Shown here piece by piece: positions 33,683 through 40,084 of a stretch of DNA of 64,000 nt. Origin of the DNA: Desulfosarcina widdelii. GTDB lineage: Bacteria; Desulfobacterota; Desulfobacteria; Desulfobacterales; Desulfosarcinaceae. The notes below the pieces were generated by a model, which was given only the letters and a program-made list of their open reading frames with translations, was not told where the DNA came from and did no database searches. A program made the translations under genes and the position numbers. The stretch lies in assembly GCF_009688965.1 (NCBI RefSeq), contig NZ_AP021875.1, forward strand, positions 4,216,001 to 4,280,000, written 5' to 3'. The stretch's first letter is position 1. Each line of letters begins with the position of its first letter.

Positions 33683-33949
33683 TTGTTCGATTACAAAAGA
33701 AACAGGGACTGGGCCGAAAACCTGACCATTGTGATGCAGTTGGGCCTGACCATGGCCGGCTGTATCGTTTTCTGCTTTTTTGTGGGCCGCGGCCTGGACA
33801 GATGGTTGGGATTCAACGGCGTGTTCACTACGATTTTTATTCTTCTCGGCGTTGCCGGCGGTGCCAACGTCTGCTACCGACAGATCCTTGAAATTACGGA
33901 ACCGAAAAACAAGGTGGACCCCGATGAAAACGGCCACAACGGTTCTTGA
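33683..33949 (+). CDS. atpZ: AtpZ-like F0 accessory protein
   Basis: The 88-residue protein has two membrane helices (about 15-35 and 45-65) and GRGLDRWLG, as in AtpZ/AtpQ-type proteins encoded first in atp operons. It probably helps assemble F0 and may take part in Mg2+ or Ca2+ transport. The start is taken as TTG, since no ATG or GTG lies in frame before the first helix. It overlaps atpI by 26 bp. Confidence 0.78.
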   Translation: MFDYKRNRDWAENLTIVMQLGLTMAGCIVFCFFVGRGLDRWLGFNGVFTTIFILLGVAGGANVCYRQILEITEPKNKVDPDENGHNGS

Positions 33950-34313
33950 GGTTCAAAAAAAATATGGCTCCCGGGCATTGATGCTTTCCATTGGCGTCGG
34001 GCTTTTGTCCCTGGCCATGGGGTACAAAGAAATCTGCCGGGGGGTGGTGCTGGGAGGGGTGTTCAGTGCAATCAACTTCGCGCTGATGGGCCAGTTGCTG
34101 CGCTACCGGCTCCAGGAAAATCGCAAGGCGGCCGCGCGGCGATCTTTTGCCGCCCTGCTGCTCCGATACGCGCTTTTGGCCATACCGCTGGTTCTGGCGG
34201 TACAATCCGAACGATTCAACCTTCCTTTTACAGTGGTAGGCATCTTCATGGTTCAACTGGTGATCCTGTTCGAACAGGGGTCCCGGTTGATTTTCGCTTC
34301 CGTCAAGAACTGA
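33924..34313 (+). CDS. atpI: ATP synthase subunit I (AtpI)
   Basis: The 129-residue protein has four membrane helices and YKEICRGVVLGGVFSAINF, similar to AtpI, the chaperone for c-ring assembly. The ATG at 33924 is preceded by AAGGTGG. It lies between atpZ and atpB in standard order. A dedicated ring-assembly factor is relevant here because the operon encodes two very different c proteins. Confidence 0.78.
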   Translation: MKTATTVLEVQKKYGSRALMLSIGVGLLSLAMGYKEICRGVVLGGVFSAINFALMGQLLRYRLQENRKAAARRSFAALLLRYALLAIPLVLAVQSERFNLPFTVVGIFMVQLVILFEQGSRLIFASVKN

Positions 34314-34332
34314 ACCGCGAGGGCGATGGAAC

Positions 34333-35007
34333 ATGGGAGAACTTGGGAGAATTCACCAACTGATCATACCGGTTTTCGGTCACTCTATGGCGTTCAATCT
34401 CGAGGTCATTCTCATGACCTGGATCGCCTTTGCGGTGATTTTCGTTTTGGGCTATCTGACGGCCCGTAAACGGGGGATGGTGCCCGAATCCATGCAGGTG
34501 TTCGGTGAATTGTTCGTAGCCAACCTCTACAAACTGACCGAAGATGCCCTGGACGAGGAGATGGCCGAAAAATATGGTCCGCTGATCTGTGCCCTGTTTC
34601 TGTTTCTGCTGGTGTCCAACTGGCTGGGTATCGTTCCCCATCTGGAAGAACCCACCAAGGACCTCAACACGCCGCTCAGCCTCGGAGTGATGGGATTTGT
34701 GATCGCCCATGTGGCGGGGATCCGCAAAAAAGGATTTAAAAGCTACGCCGCCGAGTATTTTCAACCGATTTTCTTCATGGCGCCACTGAACATCATCGGC
34801 GAAATGGCCAAAATCGTCTCCATTTCCTTCCGTCTGTTCGGCAACATCATGGGGGGCTCGATCATTATCCTCGTGGTGTCCTACCTGACCTGGAGTATTG
34901 TGCTGCCACCGTTTCTCTATGCCTTTTTCGGCATGTTCGTGGGAACCATTCAGGCTTTTGTTTTTACGATGCTAACCGTTGTTTATATCTCGGTTCAGGT
35001 GAAATAG
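34333..35007 (+). CDS. atpB: ATP synthase F0 subunit a
   Basis: The 224-residue integral membrane protein forms the stator half-channels. The essential Arg that faces the c-ring is in SFRLFGNIMGG, and the final helix pair has GMFVGTIQAFVFTMLTVVYI. The length is typical for a subunit of this form. It lies directly before the fused c gene, with the stop abutting the next ATG. Na+ or H+ specificity cannot be decided from this subunit. Confidence 0.95.
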   Translation: MGELGRIHQLIIPVFGHSMAFNLEVILMTWIAFAVIFVLGYLTARKRGMVPESMQVFGELFVANLYKLTEDALDEEMAEKYGPLICALFLFLLVSNWLGIVPHLEEPTKDLNTPLSLGVMGFVIAHVAGIRKKGFKSYAAEYFQPIFFMAPLNIIGEMAKIVSISFRLFGNIMGGSIIILVVSYLTWSIVLPPFLYAFFGMFVGTIQAFVFTMLTVVYISVQVK

Positions 35008-35985
35008 ATGATGGAACTCGATGTTCAGGCATGGGTGAAGGTTGCCGCATTTGCCGGCGGGGGAATTGCCATGGGGCTTGGCGCGGTCGGTGCTGCCATC
35101 GGCGAAGGCTACACCGCGGCCCAGGCCAATCTGGCCGTTTCCAGAAGTCCGAGGCTTTCCGGGGATATTTTTAAAAACATGCTGGTCGGCCAGGCGGTGG
35201 CCGAATCCGCCTCGATTTTTGCGCTGGTCGTGGCGATTTTGCTGCTGTTCATGGATACGGGCGCTCCTACCATGCTCAAAGCGGCGGCCCTGTTCGGCGC
35301 TGGGCTGAGCATGGGGTTCGGCGCCATCGGGTCGGGCGTCGGATCGGGCTTTCCCGGAGGCCAGGCCTGCCTGGGTATATCGCGGCAGCCTGCGGTGGCC
35401 AGCCGGTTGACCACCAACATGCTGATCGGCTCGGCCGTATGCCAGACACCGGCCATCTTTTCCATGGTCGTGGCATTGATGCTGCTCTTCATGGATTTTT
35501 CCCAAGCCCCCCTGCATCCGACCTGGGCGGCGTTGGTGGGGGCGGGCCTGAGCACGGGACTGGCAGCCATCGGGTCGGGGTACGGCGGCGGTATGGCTGC
35601 CGGCACGAGCTGTGAGGGAGTTGCCCGGCAGCCGGAAACGGTGGGCAATGTAACCACCATCATGCTGGTCGGCCAGGCCGTGGCCCAGACCCCGTCCATT
35701 TTCGGACTACTGGTCAGCTTCATTCTGATGTTCAAAACCTTTCCCGAGTCCCATCAACTGCAGGCCGCCATGGCTTTGCTGGGAGCCGGTTTATGCACCG
35801 GATTAGGTGGCATCGGACCCGGAGTGGGCAACGGTATGGCCGCGGAAAGCGCAGTGCGCTGGGTGGCAAGGAACGTACAAAACGCCGCCGATCTCATGCG
35901 GACCATGCTGGTGGGGCAAGCGGTGTCCCAGTCTACCGCCATCTATGCCATGGTGGTCAGTCTGGTTCTGATTTTTGTAGTATAG
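35008..35985 (+). CDS. Quadruple-hairpin ATP synthase c subunit with one ion site
   Basis: The 325-residue protein consists of four tandem copies of the c hairpin (about 1-83, 84-163, 164-244, 245-325), that is eight membrane helices. Each copy has the G-rich helix 1, a polar RQP/RSP/ARN loop, and helix 2 with a GxAV(A/C/S)(E/Q) core. The ion-carrying carboxylate is present only in copy 1 (E66, with helix-1 E33). In copies 2, 3 and 4 the aligned residue is Gln (Q146, Q227, Q308), and helix-1 Glu is Ser, Gly and Asn. Copies 2 and 3 also have QTP. Intact glycine spacing suggests the gene is functional. It would lower the number of ions per turn if built into the ring. Fused c proteins are known in V/A-type and a few F-type rotors, but usually with two or three hairpins. 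Confidence 0.9.
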   Translation: MMELDVQAWVKVAAFAGGGIAMGLGAVGAAIGEGYTAAQANLAVSRSPRLSGDIFKNMLVGQAVAESASIFALVVAILLLFMDTGAPTMLKAAALFGAGLSMGFGAIGSGVGSGFPGGQACLGISRQPAVASRLTTNMLIGSAVCQTPAIFSMVVALMLLFMDFSQAPLHPTWAALVGAGLSTGLAAIGSGYGGGMAAGTSCEGVARQPETVGNVTTIMLVGQAVAQTPSIFGLLVSFILMFKTFPESHQLQAAMALLGAGLCTGLGGIGPGVGNGMAAESAVRWVARNVQNAADLMRTMLVGQAVSQSTAIYAMVVSLVLIFVV

Positions 35986-36052
35986 CATTGCACGAATAAA
36001 ACCGGAACAAAGATAAAACGTCCAAAAAGACCGTTAATCGAGGAGGAAAACC

Positions 36053-36301
36053 ATGGCCATTGAAGGGGCAGACATTGTTAAGGCAGCGGCTTTTCTTGGA
36101 GCCGGCATTTCCATGGGATTGGGCGCCATCGGCCCCGGAGTGGGCGAGGGCATGGTGGCCGCCAAAGCATGCGAAGCCATCGGCAAGAATCCCAAAGAGG
36201 CGGGATTGTTGACCCGGACCATGCTGGTGGGGCAGGCGGTGTCCGAATCGACCGGTATTTACTCCCTGGTGATTGCCCTGCTGCTGCTGTTCGTGGTCTG
36301 A
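36053..36301 (+). CDS. atpE: ATP synthase F0 subunit c, single hairpin, Na+-type site
   Basis: This normal-sized c subunit has 82 residues in two helices. Helix 2 has E65-S66-T67 and Y70 with V63, the Na+-binding pattern of Ilyobacter-type rings. Helix 1 has Glu at position 32, where Ilyobacter has Gln. This combination resembles the two-carboxylate ring described for Fusobacterium nucleatum, so Na+ coupling is likely but not proven. GGAGG precedes the ATG. It is closely similar to copies 1 and 4 of the upstream fused protein, which points to local duplication. Confidence 0.94.
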   Translation: MAIEGADIVKAAAFLGAGISMGLGAIGPGVGEGMVAAKACEAIGKNPKEAGLLTRTMLVGQAVSESTGIYSLVIALLLLFVV

Positions 36302-36460
36302 CGAATCCGGCCCGGCGCTTCCCTTTTCCTGACTAAGCGGCGTTTTCCCGTTTCCAGTCGCAACCGTTTTGCACCGGTTCAAGCCGATGGGGCCGAGTAA
36401 TCGTTGCCAATGGCCATCCGGCGACCCAAAACGGAGAACCGCCAGCGGAGAATAACCGCC

Positions 36461-36916
36461 ATGGAAATTATTGCTACCAATGCCCTGATCAGCATTAATG
36501 CGACCTTTGCGGTCCAGCTGATCTCTTTTTTAATTTTTCTGTATATCATGAACCGGATTATGTTTCGTCCGCTTCGCAGCACCATGGAGCAGCGGGACAT
36601 TTATATCGACCGCGTCAAGGAAGAAATCCGCTCCGGGAAAGAAAAACTGGAAAACCTGGCCGAGGAATTGGACGCCCAGCGTGCCCGAGTGGTGAGGGAA
36701 GCGGATAGGGCGGCCAAATCCCTGGAATCAGAGGGAGACCGGCAGGCTGCCGAACTGATCGAACAGGCCCGGCAGCAAATCACCTCTTTGAGAAGTGAAA
36801 CCGAAGCCCGGGTCGTCGATCAGGTGAAACAGGCCCGCAAGGCCATTGCCGAAGAGGTGGAAGCTGTCACCGTGGCTGTGATGGAAAAGGTACTGCATCG
36901 GAGGCTGTCCTCATGA
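36461..36916 (+). CDS. atpF': ATP synthase F0 subunit b'
   Basis: The 151-residue protein has one N-terminal membrane helix (FAVQLISFLIFLYIMNRIMF) followed by a long charged coiled coil, typical of a stator b/b' subunit. The ATG at 36461 is taken because the longer frame from 36404 adds a basic non-hydrophobic leader; GGAG lies about 11 nt upstream. It overlaps the next gene by 4 bp. Two different b-type subunits in tandem suggest a heterodimeric stalk. Confidence 0.88.
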   Translation: MEIIATNALISINATFAVQLISFLIFLYIMNRIMFRPLRSTMEQRDIYIDRVKEEIRSGKEKLENLAEELDAQRARVVREADRAAKSLESEGDRQAAELIEQARQQITSLRSETEARVVDQVKQARKAIAEEVEAVTVAVMEKVLHRRLSS

Positions 36917-37491
36917 AGGAGACCGGATCTTCAGGCGCAGCAGGCGTCACGATCCTTTTTATCTGGCTTGGGCTGCTTTTTTTTCCTGAATCCGCCGCGG
37001 CCGGCGATCCTGGATGGCGGCCAACCTATGACATTGTGCTGCGGTGGGTAAACTTTATTATTCTGGTGGCGGTGATCGTCAAATACTCCCACGAACCGAT
37101 CAAAAATTTTCTGAAGCTGCAAAAAGGCGACGTGGTTTCGCGTATCGCCGAGCTGGACAGCGAGAAGTCCCGAATCATAGAAGAGATCAAGGAAGTCAGA
37201 AAAAAAGGTGAGGCCAACCGGATTCGTTTTAAAGAGATGAAAGAGCGTCTGATCGCCCAGGGAGAAACCCGCAAGCAGGAACTCATCAGCCAGGCCAAAC
37301 AGCAAAGTGCAATCATGCTGGAAGATACCCGGCGCAAGTTGGAAAATCGGGTTGTCCAGGCCAAGACCGCCCTTAAATTGGAATTGCTGGACATGGCTAT
37401 CGAGCAGGCCATGAACCAGCTCCCGGGCATCCTCACCGATGGAGACAATCAACGACTGCTGGACGACTATATGAAAAGCCTCGACACTTGA
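36913..37491 (+). CDS. atpF: ATP synthase F0 subunit b
   Basis: The 192-residue protein starts with a signal-like hydrophobic segment (about 12-30), a second membrane stretch (about 44-60, VLRWVNFIILVAVIVKY) and a coiled-coil tail. The extra N-terminal hydrophobic part is common in b subunits of Desulfobacterota. It pairs with b'. It is the last atp gene here: delta, alpha, gamma, beta and epsilon are absent, so F1 must be encoded elsewhere. Confidence 0.88.
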   Translation: MKETGSSGAAGVTILFIWLGLLFFPESAAAGDPGWRPTYDIVLRWVNFIILVAVIVKYSHEPIKNFLKLQKGDVVSRIAELDSEKSRIIEEIKEVRKKGEANRIRFKEMKERLIAQGETRKQELISQAKQQSAIMLEDTRRKLENRVVQAKTALKLELLDMAIEQAMNQLPGILTDGDNQRLLDDYMKSLDT

Positions 37492-37667
37492 CGGCAGTAA
37501 AAGGTCCCGTTGCCCGTTGCGATGGGGATCCGGTTATAGGAACAGGACTATTTTGCTGCTTGACGACCGACCCTGATTTGCATTAGGGAGGCGTTGGTGC
37601 CATTTTTCTAAATAAAAGGGATTCAATTTCCGCAATGCGGCAGCGCGGAGAGAACGGGACGATTACT

Positions 37668-38369
37668 ATGGAAAACAATACCTCCATCGAAACCTTTATC
37701 AAAGAGCAGATCGAAAGATGGAAAAACCAGACCCAAACCCATATACCGGTGATAACGGTTTCCTCCCAGCCGGGCAGCGGCGGACGGGTGATCGCCAAGG
37801 GGCTGGCCAAGCGGCTTTGCATTGACCTGTTCGACCGGGACATCGTCAAGGAAATTGCCGAAAGCGCCCATATCAGTGGTGCCGTCATCGAAACCATGGA
37901 GAAGGAACGTCTTTCCGGAATCAAGGATTTCATCTCTTCTTTGGTGGATGACCGCTACTTGTGGCCCGGCGTCTATTTGGACCATCTGATGAAAGTGGTC
38001 GCCGCCATTGCCAGCCACGGCAATGCGGTCATCGTGGGACGCGGGGCCAACTTTCTGATTCCACAAAAAGAGCGAATGAGCATTCGAGTGATTGCACCTT
38101 TCAGAGTCCGGGTGCAAAACGTGGCCAAAACATTTGGCGTCACCCGGGAAGAAGCCAAACGACGCGTCATCCATCGCGAGAATCGAAGATCAGCATTTAT
38201 CCGGCAGTCCTTCAATGCGGACGTTGCCGATCCCAACAACTACGATCTGGTCATCAACACCGGCCGGGGCGACATCGATGCGGCCATTGGAGCGGTGATC
38301 GGCATGGTGGTGGGCTGTAAAGAGGTCGTTGTCAAAAAACCGCCGGCCAAATCACCCGGAAAAAAATAA
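37668..38369 (+). CDS. Cytidylate kinase-like protein
   Basis: The 233-residue protein has a variant P-loop (SSQPGSGGRVIAKGLAKRL near 33-50) and VIVGRGANFL, typical of the cytidylate kinase-like (AAA_26) family that is common in anaerobes and distinct from Cmk. The substrate is unknown. I start at ATG 37668; an in-frame ATG at 37635 has no convincing ribosome site. A basic KKPPAKSPGKK tail is present. A strong terminator follows. Confidence 0.82.
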   Translation: MENNTSIETFIKEQIERWKNQTQTHIPVITVSSQPGSGGRVIAKGLAKRLCIDLFDRDIVKEIAESAHISGAVIETMEKERLSGIKDFISSLVDDRYLWPGVYLDHLMKVVAAIASHGNAVIVGRGANFLIPQKERMSIRVIAPFRVRVQNVAKTFGVTREEAKRRVIHRENRRSAFIRQSFNADVADPNNYDLVINTGRGDIDAAIGAVIGMVVGCKEVVVKKPPAKSPGKK

Positions 38370-38779: not shown

Positions 38780-40084
38780 ATGGATGGGGCCCTGATACCG
38801 ATTGTTGTTTTCCTGCTCGTTTATGTGGCGCTGACCTTCGAACTGGTCAACAAGGCCGTGGCTGCACTGCTGGGCGTGATGGTGCTGATCACCCTGCACG
38901 TGGTCAGCGAACACCAGGCCGTGGAGTTCATCGACTTCGAAACCATCATGCTGCTGCTGGGCATGATGTCCATTGTGGCGATTCTCCGGAAAACCCGATT
39001 TTTCACCATCGTTTCGGTCCGGATCGCCGAGATGACCCAGGGCAGCCCGCTCAAGATCCTGATCCTCTTTTCCATCGTCACCGCCGTATTGTCCGCCTTT
39101 CTGGACAACGTGACCACGGTGCTGATCATCGTTCCCATCGTCATCGAGCTGACTGCCGGCATGGGCCTGGACCCGAAGTTGTATGTGATCAGCCAGGCCA
39201 TCATTTCCAATATCGGCGGTACGGCCACCCTGATCGGCGATCCGCCCAACATCATCATCGGCTCCAAGGTGGGCCTGACCTTCAACCAGTTCATGCTCAA
39301 CCTCACCCTGCCGGTAACGGTCTGCTTTGCGGTGGCCATCGTCTACCTCTGGGCCACCAACCGGGACAAATTCAAGCCCATCGACACCAGTCTGGCCAAA
39401 CTTTTTTCGGTGCAACTGCTGCTGGAAAAAATTCGCTACAATTTTCTGGACACAAAAATCGACGCCGTTTTCCTGACCAAGGGGCTGGCCTGCCTGGGTC
39501 TGGCTATTTTGCTGTTCGTCACCCAGACCGTCACCAAGCTTTCTCCCGGGGTGGTGGCCATGCTGGTGGCCATGATTCTGTTCGTGATCACGCGCATCGA
39601 TGTGGAAGAGATGCTCGAAGAGATCGAGTGGAGCACCCTTTTGTTTTTCACCGGCCTGTTCATCCTGGTGGGCGTGCTGGAGCATAAAGGCGTCATCGAA
39701 TGGATCGCCCGCAACATTTTCATGCGGGTGGGGGACAACCCCTATGTGATCGTGCTGACGGTGCTGTGGGTGTCGGGCATCGTCTCGGGCTTTCTGGACA
39801 ACATCCCGTTCACCATCACCATGATCCCCATCGTCCGGCTGATGCTGGAGAGCAACCCCATCCCCAACAACATCCTGTGGTGGGCATTGTCTTTAGGAGC
39901 CTGTCTGGGCGGCAACCTGACCATGATCGGGGCCTCGGCCAATATCGTTTCCGTGGGGATGGCCAAGAAATTCGGACAGGAAATCAGTTTTATCGAATTT
40001 GCCCGCAAGAGCGTGGTCATCACCCTGATCACCCTGACGATCGCCTCGGGCTATCTGATGCTCTATTTATGGATATCGTTATGA
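38780..40084 (+). CDS. ArsB/NhaD-type ion transporter
   Basis: The 434-residue inner-membrane protein of the ion transporter superfamily (ArsB, P-protein, NhaD) has eleven to twelve helices. Two inverted-repeat hairpins are visible: FLDNVTTVLIIVPIVIEL with ATLIGDPPNI, and FLDNIPFTITMIPIV with LTMIGASANIV. Family members move arsenite, Na+/H+, citrate or silicate; arsenite is unlikely without ars genes nearby. It overlaps the following eIF2B-like gene by 4 bp, an unusual pairing. Confidence 0.82.
   Translation: MDGALIPIVVFLLVYVALTFELVNKAVAALLGVMVLITLHVVSEHQAVEFIDFETIMLLLGMMSIVAILRKTRFFTIVSVRIAEMTQGSPLKILILFSIVTAVLSAFLDNVTTVLIIVPIVIELTAGMGLDPKLYVISQAIISNIGGTATLIGDPPNIIIGSKVGLTFNQFMLNLTLPVTVCFAVAIVYLWATNRDKFKPIDTSLAKLFSVQLLLEKIRYNFLDTKIDAVFLTKGLACLGLAILLFVTQTVTKLSPGVVAMLVAMILFVITRIDVEEMLEEIEWSTLLFFTGLFILVGVLEHKGVIEWIARNIFMRVGDNPYVIVLTVLWVSGIVSGFLDNIPFTITMIPIVRLMLESNPIPNNILWWALSLGACLGGNLTMIGASANIVSVGMAKKFGQEISFIEFARKSVVITLITLTIASGYLMLYLWISL

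Follow-up and report, generated by a model that had tools for sequence, protein, structure and literature searches.

The window, as the whole 64,000-nucleotide stretch of Desulfosarcina widdelii DNA is called here (contig NZ_AP021875.1, positions 4,216,001 to 4,280,000), carries an Fo operon on its forward strand, with the genes in the order ATPase_gene1, I, a, fused c, plain c, b and b' (33683-37491). The first gene encodes an AtpZ-like small membrane protein (33683..33949; PF09527, E 7.6e-15). It is followed by an AtpI-like protein (33924..34313; PF03899, E 4.1e-8), for which the ATG at 33924 was chosen by us as the start, the mechanical open reading frame beginning at 33780. Subunit a (34333..35007; PF00119, E 4e-51) has the stator arginine, Arg167, which is conserved in 124 of 124 homologues. 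The fused c gene (35008..35985) comes next, and then the plain, single-hairpin c (36053..36301; PF00137, E 1.4e-18), which is preceded by a Shine-Dalgarno-like GAGGAGG at 36040..36046. Subunit b (36461..36916; PF00430, E 6.1e-14) again has a start of our choice, ATG 36461, in a mechanical frame that begins at 36404, and the PF00430 match of b' (36913..37491; E 2e-5, 25.1 bits) is below the Pfam curated cut-off of 28. No F1 genes adjoin the operon. The preliminary description had placed the fused gene in an F-type operon beside a normal c gene; the normal c is there, and the operon is one of Fo only. A cytidylate-kinase-like gene (37635-38369; PF13189) lies directly after b', and a similar gene is found near the fused-c operon in many, not all, relatives. 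Further on are a CitMHS-family ion transporter (38780-40084; PF03600), an IF-2B-family protein and a PAS/sigma-54 regulator.

The fused c reading frame runs through 325 codons without an internal stop. The ATG at 35011, the second in the frame, more probably serves as the start, because most four-hairpin homologues are 324 residues long when counted from their own first start. The ATP-synt_C profile (PF00137) matches the protein four times (whole-protein E 3.6e-58), and the AlphaFold2 model (mean pLDDT 95.6, pTM 0.91) contains eleven helical segments, which we take for eight membrane helices, long and partly kinked; the profile and the transmembrane hairpins by which an ATP synthase c subunit is recognised are thus both found. 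The ion-binding carboxylate of helix 2 is present in hairpin 1 only (E66, together with the helix-1 glutamate E33) and is glutamine in the other three hairpins (Q146, Q227 and Q308), so that both the four tandem hairpins and the residues named for them in the preliminary description are confirmed. In the numbering of Na+ c-rings (positions 32, 63, 65, 66, 67 and 70), which is used from here on, hairpin 1 (35020..35259) has E32 and E65, with Ala at position 67 and Phe at position 70, and represents a live half-site. Hairpins 2 to 4 have Q65, with Ser, Gly and Asn, respectively, at position 32. Hairpins 2 (35260..35502) and 3 (35503..35745) are silent and carry Pro67 and Phe70. Hairpin 4 (35746..35982) has the glutamine, yet keeps Ser66, Thr67 and Tyr70, a half-site which, in the ring, would complete the Glu of the adjoining neighbour.

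The best match of the fused c, in sequence as well as in fold, is the c1 subunit of the Na+ F/V-hybrid rotor of Acetobacterium woodii (4bem_J; Foldseek E 6.5e-7 for the model). In that system, too, fused hairpins belong to an F-type ring beside a plain c, and the crystallised ring (PDB 4bem) contains both c1 and c2 chains. The c1 protein has Glu and then Gln, and Phe70 and then Tyr70, which is the layout of the window protein and fits the rule for half-sites described below. Comparison of the window genes with the c1 sequence thus finds fused hairpins with Glu first and Gln last, adjoined by a plain c in an F-type Fo operon, and the fused c is a known kind of protein, that of the hybrid F-type rotor of A. 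woodii. The two systems differ in that c1 has only two hairpins, whereas the window protein has four and its family up to six, and in that the window Fo is separated from F1. The preliminary description had named c1 correctly as a known fused c, but overlooked its identical E-Q layout at two hairpins, as well as the absence of F1 and the half-site rule. The c1 hairpins are 73% and 73% identical to A. woodii c2 and 31-42% identical to the window hairpins (identities only, with no tree behind them). As c1 is nearer to its own c2, the two fusions are probably independent in origin, and a shared ancestral fusion is disfavoured by the same identities.

Other rotors resemble the window protein less. 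The V-type K/c subunits of Enterococcus hirae and the eukaryotic V-ATPase likewise have fused hairpins, fewer sites than hairpins and ligand sites made by two hairpins (passages of PMC2359735), but they belong to V/A-type complexes, while the window operon is F-type (a, b, b'). Of the seven PF00006 matches in the window genome, four are the alpha and beta subunits of two F1-type pairs, two are Rho proteins and one is the flagellar FliI, with no V/A-type catalytic subunit among them; an ordinary V-type K was ruled out by these matches and by the operon. The 13-hairpin c of Methanopyrus kandleri and the three-hairpin c of Methanocaldococcus also exceed two hairpins per chain. Unlike the window protein, the former is described as having full Na+ ligands in all 13 hairpins (passages of PMC2359735), and both are parts of archaeal ATPases. 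The two-carboxylate Na+ ring of Fusobacterium nucleatum has the ligand set E32, V63, E65, S66, T67 and Y70, as does the window plain c, and consists of 11 single-hairpin c subunits, with no fused subunit mentioned in the relevant part of PMC3692424. The N-ATPase c of the window genome has the E32/E65/S66/T67/Y70 set of the window plain c, but Met63; it is a single-hairpin protein of a separate, complete operon, unlike the fused c.

Matches to the fused c occur in 39 of the 60 genomes of a search among relatives (E <= 1e-60, own genome included) and in 43 of the 395 genomes of a phylum-wide sample (E <= 1e-25, own genome included; this threshold can miss short members). The whole-genome searches covered the phylum of the window and one further phylum with two genomes. 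A scan of named genomes gave 69 fused-c loci, in which the gene order of the window recurs as far as the loci reach, with small departures (I and b' were not detected in L110, nor gene1 and I in L129). The plain c follows the fused c in 65 of these loci, and the remaining four end first. One locus, L081, has two consecutive plain c genes. In the second phylum, both genomes (G450 and G451, with loci L129 and L224) encode an E-Q-Q member of three hairpins, preceded by a and followed by c, b and b'. The L129 locus includes a complete F1, and L224 is, by our reading, cut within delta; one of the records is labelled Candidatus Methylomirabilis at NCBI, and the label may be wrong.

When proteins differing in their last 150 residues are taken as distinct, the family comprises 124 complete members, with 2-6 hairpins and 1-3 Glu sites each. 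Three rows cut by contig ends (L194, L127 and L115), L125, in which the frame is split into two open reading frames on a metagenome contig, and L224, which was found later, are outside these counts. Two members have two hairpins (EE and EQ), 10 have three (EQQ 6, EQE 4), 92 have four (EQQQ 53, EQQE 29, EQEE 10), 15 have five (EQQQQ 9, EQQQE 6) and 5 have six (all EQQQQQ). The preliminary description had proposed to search Desulfobacterota Fo operons for eight-helix c proteins and to align their four repeats; doing so shows that the form it gave, four hairpins with one site, is one of several. A single site is found in 74 of the 124 proteins. Position 65, over all hairpins of the family, is Glu 184 times and Gln 323 times and never any other residue. 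The trees of the other operon proteins require at least 16 changes of hairpin number and 32-33 changes of site pattern, part of which may be due to poor resolution. The wide conservation of the family with a variable length of the silent sector, and the presence of up to six hairpins with one site per chain, are new. Among the open-licence papers listed by the literature searches, a scope outside which most subscription papers lie, no title or abstract opening deals with four- to six-hairpin c proteins in Desulfobacterota, and these searches brought up neither a biochemical study of a family member nor data on its protein, expression or structure. The EE member, L198, is peculiar in that its plain c precedes the fused gene instead of following it.

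It might be argued that the fused gene is a degenerate tandem duplicate on its way to being lost, or an artefact of assembly, and the split frame of L125 speaks for this. The frame is intact, though, in all 124 distinct proteins, and its breakage in close relatives, by which the preliminary description would have been undone, did not occur. The median pN/pS is 0.19-0.22 in each of the four hairpins of the EQQQ four-hairpin proteins (932 sequence pairs, with synonymous sites near saturation), and all four hairpins are under purifying selection. The glutamine is invariant, and the gene is present in a genome assembled into a single contig of 7,297,718 bases. Decay or artefact is thus extremely improbable, and chance or a pseudogene is ruled out by the family matches, the intact frames, the invariant glutamine and the pN/pS.

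In an Na+ c-ring, the site is made by Glu32 and Glu65 of one c subunit and by Val63 and Ser66 of the c next to it, with Tyr70 forming a bond to Glu65 (passages of PMC3692424). If consecutive hairpins of a fused c are neighbours in the ring, the Ser/Thr/Tyr half is expected in a given hairpin only when the following hairpin has Glu. The neighbour of the last hairpin is another subunit, and so the half is expected there always. This is what the 124 proteins show. Tyr70 is kept in 51 of 60 internal hairpins that precede a live hairpin, in 1 of 323 that precede a dead one and in 124 of 124 last hairpins; the corresponding numbers for Thr67 are 47 of 60, 0 of 323 and 123 of 124. For Tyr70 at internal hairpins, the raw Fisher p, which ignores kinship, is 7e-53. 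Tabulation showed that Tyr70 does not follow the Glu of its own or of the previous hairpin. The exceptions are nine live interfaces without Tyr70 (hairpin 2 in L175, L117, L131 and L057; hairpin 3 in L028, L029, L030, L032 and L033), and one dead interface with it, in L189.

Kinship was corrected for by pairing proteins on supported branches of a tree of a, b and b' together, for which 121 of the 124 rows could be used (three have no copy of one of the three proteins in their stretch). The link between Glu in the last hairpin and Tyr in the penultimate one gives 9 independent pairs, of which 7.7 on average are concordant and none opposite (median p 0.008). Among the four-hairpin proteins, the same link between hairpins 4 and 3 gives 8 pairs (median p 0.016). 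The link between the Glu of hairpin 3 and the Tyr of hairpin 2 is not significant on this tree (6 pairs, median p 0.125). The combined tree was used because the tree of a alone has only 3-5 supported independent pairs, none of them opposite, too few for significance.

Both ends of the fused c thus appear to face live partners, while its inside mostly does not, as a part of a rotor would require and as is hard to explain otherwise. The half-site rule is the strongest evidence for membership of the fused c in a ring, and it makes this membership and the order of the subunits testable by point mutation. One could suppose instead that the fused c is a separate membrane protein or an assembly factor which is merely transcribed together with the rotor genes, its place in the ring having been deduced from its sequence. 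Such a role is very improbable in view of the half-site rule, the conserved position of the gene between a and c, and the c-type fold with A. woodii c1 as its best match.

The plain c has the ligands that the partner in an Na+-coupled ring would need. The complete set E32 V63 E65 S66 T67 Y70 is present in the window plain c and in 87 of 111 distinct single-hairpin sequences of the loci. The other 24 comprise 20 sequences with Leu67 (all from the second Fo discussed below), one with Gln32, the N-ATPase c and two pieces of cut or split fused c. The Gln32 plain c belongs to L083, where hairpin 1 of the fused c likewise has Gln32. Na+ is therefore, judging by these ligands, the predicted coupling ion of the fused-c Fo. 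In the window, the Shine-Dalgarno pairing in the 20 nucleotides upstream is -11.8 kcal/mol for the plain c and -4.7 kcal/mol for the fused c. Among 122 loci, the plain c is the stronger of the two in 110, the means being -9.2 kcal/mol for the plain c and -3.5 kcal/mol for the fused c; at least 3 of the 12 loci in which it is not are six-hairpin loci, where the chosen start may be wrong. The stronger site would fit a plain c made in excess, the strength of a ribosome site being a weak proxy for copy number.

By combining these observations, a fairly probable picture of the fused c can be drawn, namely that of a rotor subunit of an Na+-type Fo, which forms a hybrid ring with an ion-free sector, lowers the number of ions per ATP and docks, with its Fo, on the single ordinary F1 of the cell. 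The fused c and the plain c of the next gene would assemble into one ring. The first hairpin of the fused c would supply the Glu pair of one Na+ site, and the last hairpin would supply the Ser/Thr/Tyr half which completes the Glu site of the next neighbour. The hairpins between them would make up the ion-free sector. Each fused c would then fill four places of the ring and add one site, so that fewer ions would be needed for each turn and each ATP. The number of fused c per ring may be one, by analogy with A. woodii. Ring size is what normally determines how many ions an ATP synthase uses per ATP; here, the number of ring places would be uncoupled from the number of ion sites.

The half-site rule is satisfied equally well by a plain c or by a second copy of the fused c as the partner, and a ring of the fused c alone would also fit it. 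The complementary half-sites of the first and last hairpins would give such a ring, for example one of three four-hairpin copies with 12 hairpins and 3 sites, working sites. The plain c would then form a ring of its own, and the cell would have two interchangeable rotors encoded in the one operon that the two genes share. A three-site ring corresponds to 1 ion per ATP and, if 50 kJ/mol per ATP is assumed, to about 518 mV, which puts ATP synthesis out of its reach, and the five- and six-hairpin one-site proteins would lead to still lower ratios. Rings of the fused c alone are unlikely on these grounds, and a mixed ring, which the preliminary description had proposed on finding what is indeed a genuine fused c with fewer sites than hairpins beside a plain c, is the most plausible reading. 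It is favoured by the adjoining plain c, by the stronger ribosome site of the plain c in most loci and by the precedent of A. woodii.

The genome offers an F1 at another place. It has three a genes and two gamma genes. An F1 locus at about 6.9035-6.9094 Mb contains, as named by profile, b, b', delta, alpha, gamma, beta and epsilon; a plain Fo of the order I-a-c is located at about 7.292-7.293 Mb, and a complete N-ATPase operon at about 4.018-4.024 Mb, whose beta, alpha and c score above the NCBI curated cut-offs for the alternate F1Fo. This inventory leaves the window Fo without an F1 of its own. The same imbalance is found in relatives: a genes exceed gamma genes by one in 18 of 18 genomes with a fused-c Fo that were given to both searches, and the two numbers agree in all 26 genomes of a set that had yielded no fused c. 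Both sets were picked by hand from the lists of the relatives search and the phylum sample, and genomes in one search only (11 further in one, 5 in the other) are excluded. An excess of one a with the fused-c Fo, and equality without it, make it appear that two Fo motors are served by a single F1.

The other Fo, read in 20 genomes with a fused-c Fo and in that of the window, consists of a and c. An I gene was detected in 18 of the 21 loci, and a b gene in none of the stretches of 6-18 kb that were read. Its plain c has Leu67 in place of Thr67 in 21 of 21 loci, because of which this Fo is probably H+-coupled. The two types of a have fixed differences and both keep the stator arginine (124 of 124 and 20 of 20), which supports two distinct kinds of Fo. 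The fused-c Fo of the window, having its own a, b and b', would most likely dock on the single ordinary F1 of the cell, which also serves the separate plain a-c Fo. Complete F1 genes lie in the fused-c operon in 11 of 42 loci read, some of the others being cut by contig ends. In G080, G153 and G091 the only gamma gene found is in the fused-c operon, so that F1 is presumably the working partner of the fused-c Fo in these genomes, with the second Fo depending on a loan of it. The loan would run in the opposite direction in the window genome, with the window Fo as the borrower. A second Fo that appears to share the F1 is a further new feature; among the open-licence papers listed by the literature searches, which most subscription papers fall outside, no title or abstract opening deals with one F1 and two Fo. 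If the arrangement is real, a single F1 combined with two Fo that differ in their predicted ion would amount to a two-fuel ATP synthase in a group with many marine sulfate reducers.

All Na+ F-type rings that had been characterised up to 2013 were made of 11 hairpins (passages of PMC3692424). For an assumed ring of this size, one four-hairpin copy with seven plain c subunits would give 8 sites and 2.67 ions/ATP, and one six-hairpin copy with five plain c subunits would give 6 sites and 2.0 ions/ATP, the copy number also being assumed. The A. woodii ring has 10 Na+ sites (quoted in PMC7793690). At an assumed 50 kJ/mol per ATP, the ion-motive force needed is 141 mV for 11 sites and 194 mV for 8 sites. 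The suggestion of the preliminary description that a lowered ion requirement is a design for low-energy anaerobes is thus backwards for synthesis, since fewer ions per ATP demand a larger ion-motive force. Conditions that suit a low ratio are a high sodium-motive force or pumping at the expense of ATP, and the motor would accordingly be used either for ATP-driven Na+ pumping or for synthesis only when the sodium-motive force is high. A pump supporting Na+-driven sulfate uptake is one possible use, sulfate transporters of the DASS family being Na+-driven (passages of PMC11887813).

Mechanically, the chief puzzle of such a rotor is how it gets across the ion-free arc. A single E56Q substitution in an artificial c10 ring of PS3 abolished ATP synthesis (passages of PMC8809890), which leaves the passage of several silent hairpins in a row (three to five, and one to five over the whole family) past the stator mechanically unexplained. 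The PS3 result would be accounted for if the silent sector were a brake, a clutch or a protection against leaks, the rotor stalling with the ion-free arc at subunit a and turning only above a threshold of torque or ion gradient, or in one direction. The invariance of Gln at the silent positions (323 of 323), with no drift, and the difference in sector length between lineages would agree with such a function. The ATP synthase of A. woodii, though, is reportedly functional with one silent hairpin, and the location of the sole gamma gene found in G080, G153 and G091 within the fused-c operon suggests that the motor must turn in ordinary life. A braking role is accordingly held to be quite unlikely.

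If the silent sector is part of a turning hybrid rotor, the family can tentatively be regarded as a series of gears on a shared head, in which one F1 takes two interchangeable Fo, one probably for H+ and one for Na+, and in which the Na+ rotor has had the length of its silent sector and the number of its sites changed many times. The sector would range from one to five hairpins, and the sites from about 10 to perhaps as few as 6 in a ring of 11 hairpins. From one Glu to the next, the arc would then span four to six hairpins, or about 131-196 degrees of such a ring. As this exceeds one 120-degree step of F1, torque would have to be carried across the ion-free gap. Such a gear series, if true, would conflict with a strict model of one carboxylate after another and with the PS3 E56Q result. 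The fused-c family, with its steps of one to five silent hairpins, would provide natural test objects for the dependence of the ratio on the number of sites and for the crossing of a carboxylate-free stretch by a rotor.

Within the genus coded g3, four genomes (G018, G023, G026 and G029) have no match to the fused c and six others have one, which points to patchy presence or loss; in these four, the numbers of a and gamma genes are equal. One metagenome-assembled genome, G031, has two fused-c operons (L016 and L055), one encoding a four-hairpin EQQQ protein and the other a five-hairpin EQQQQ protein.
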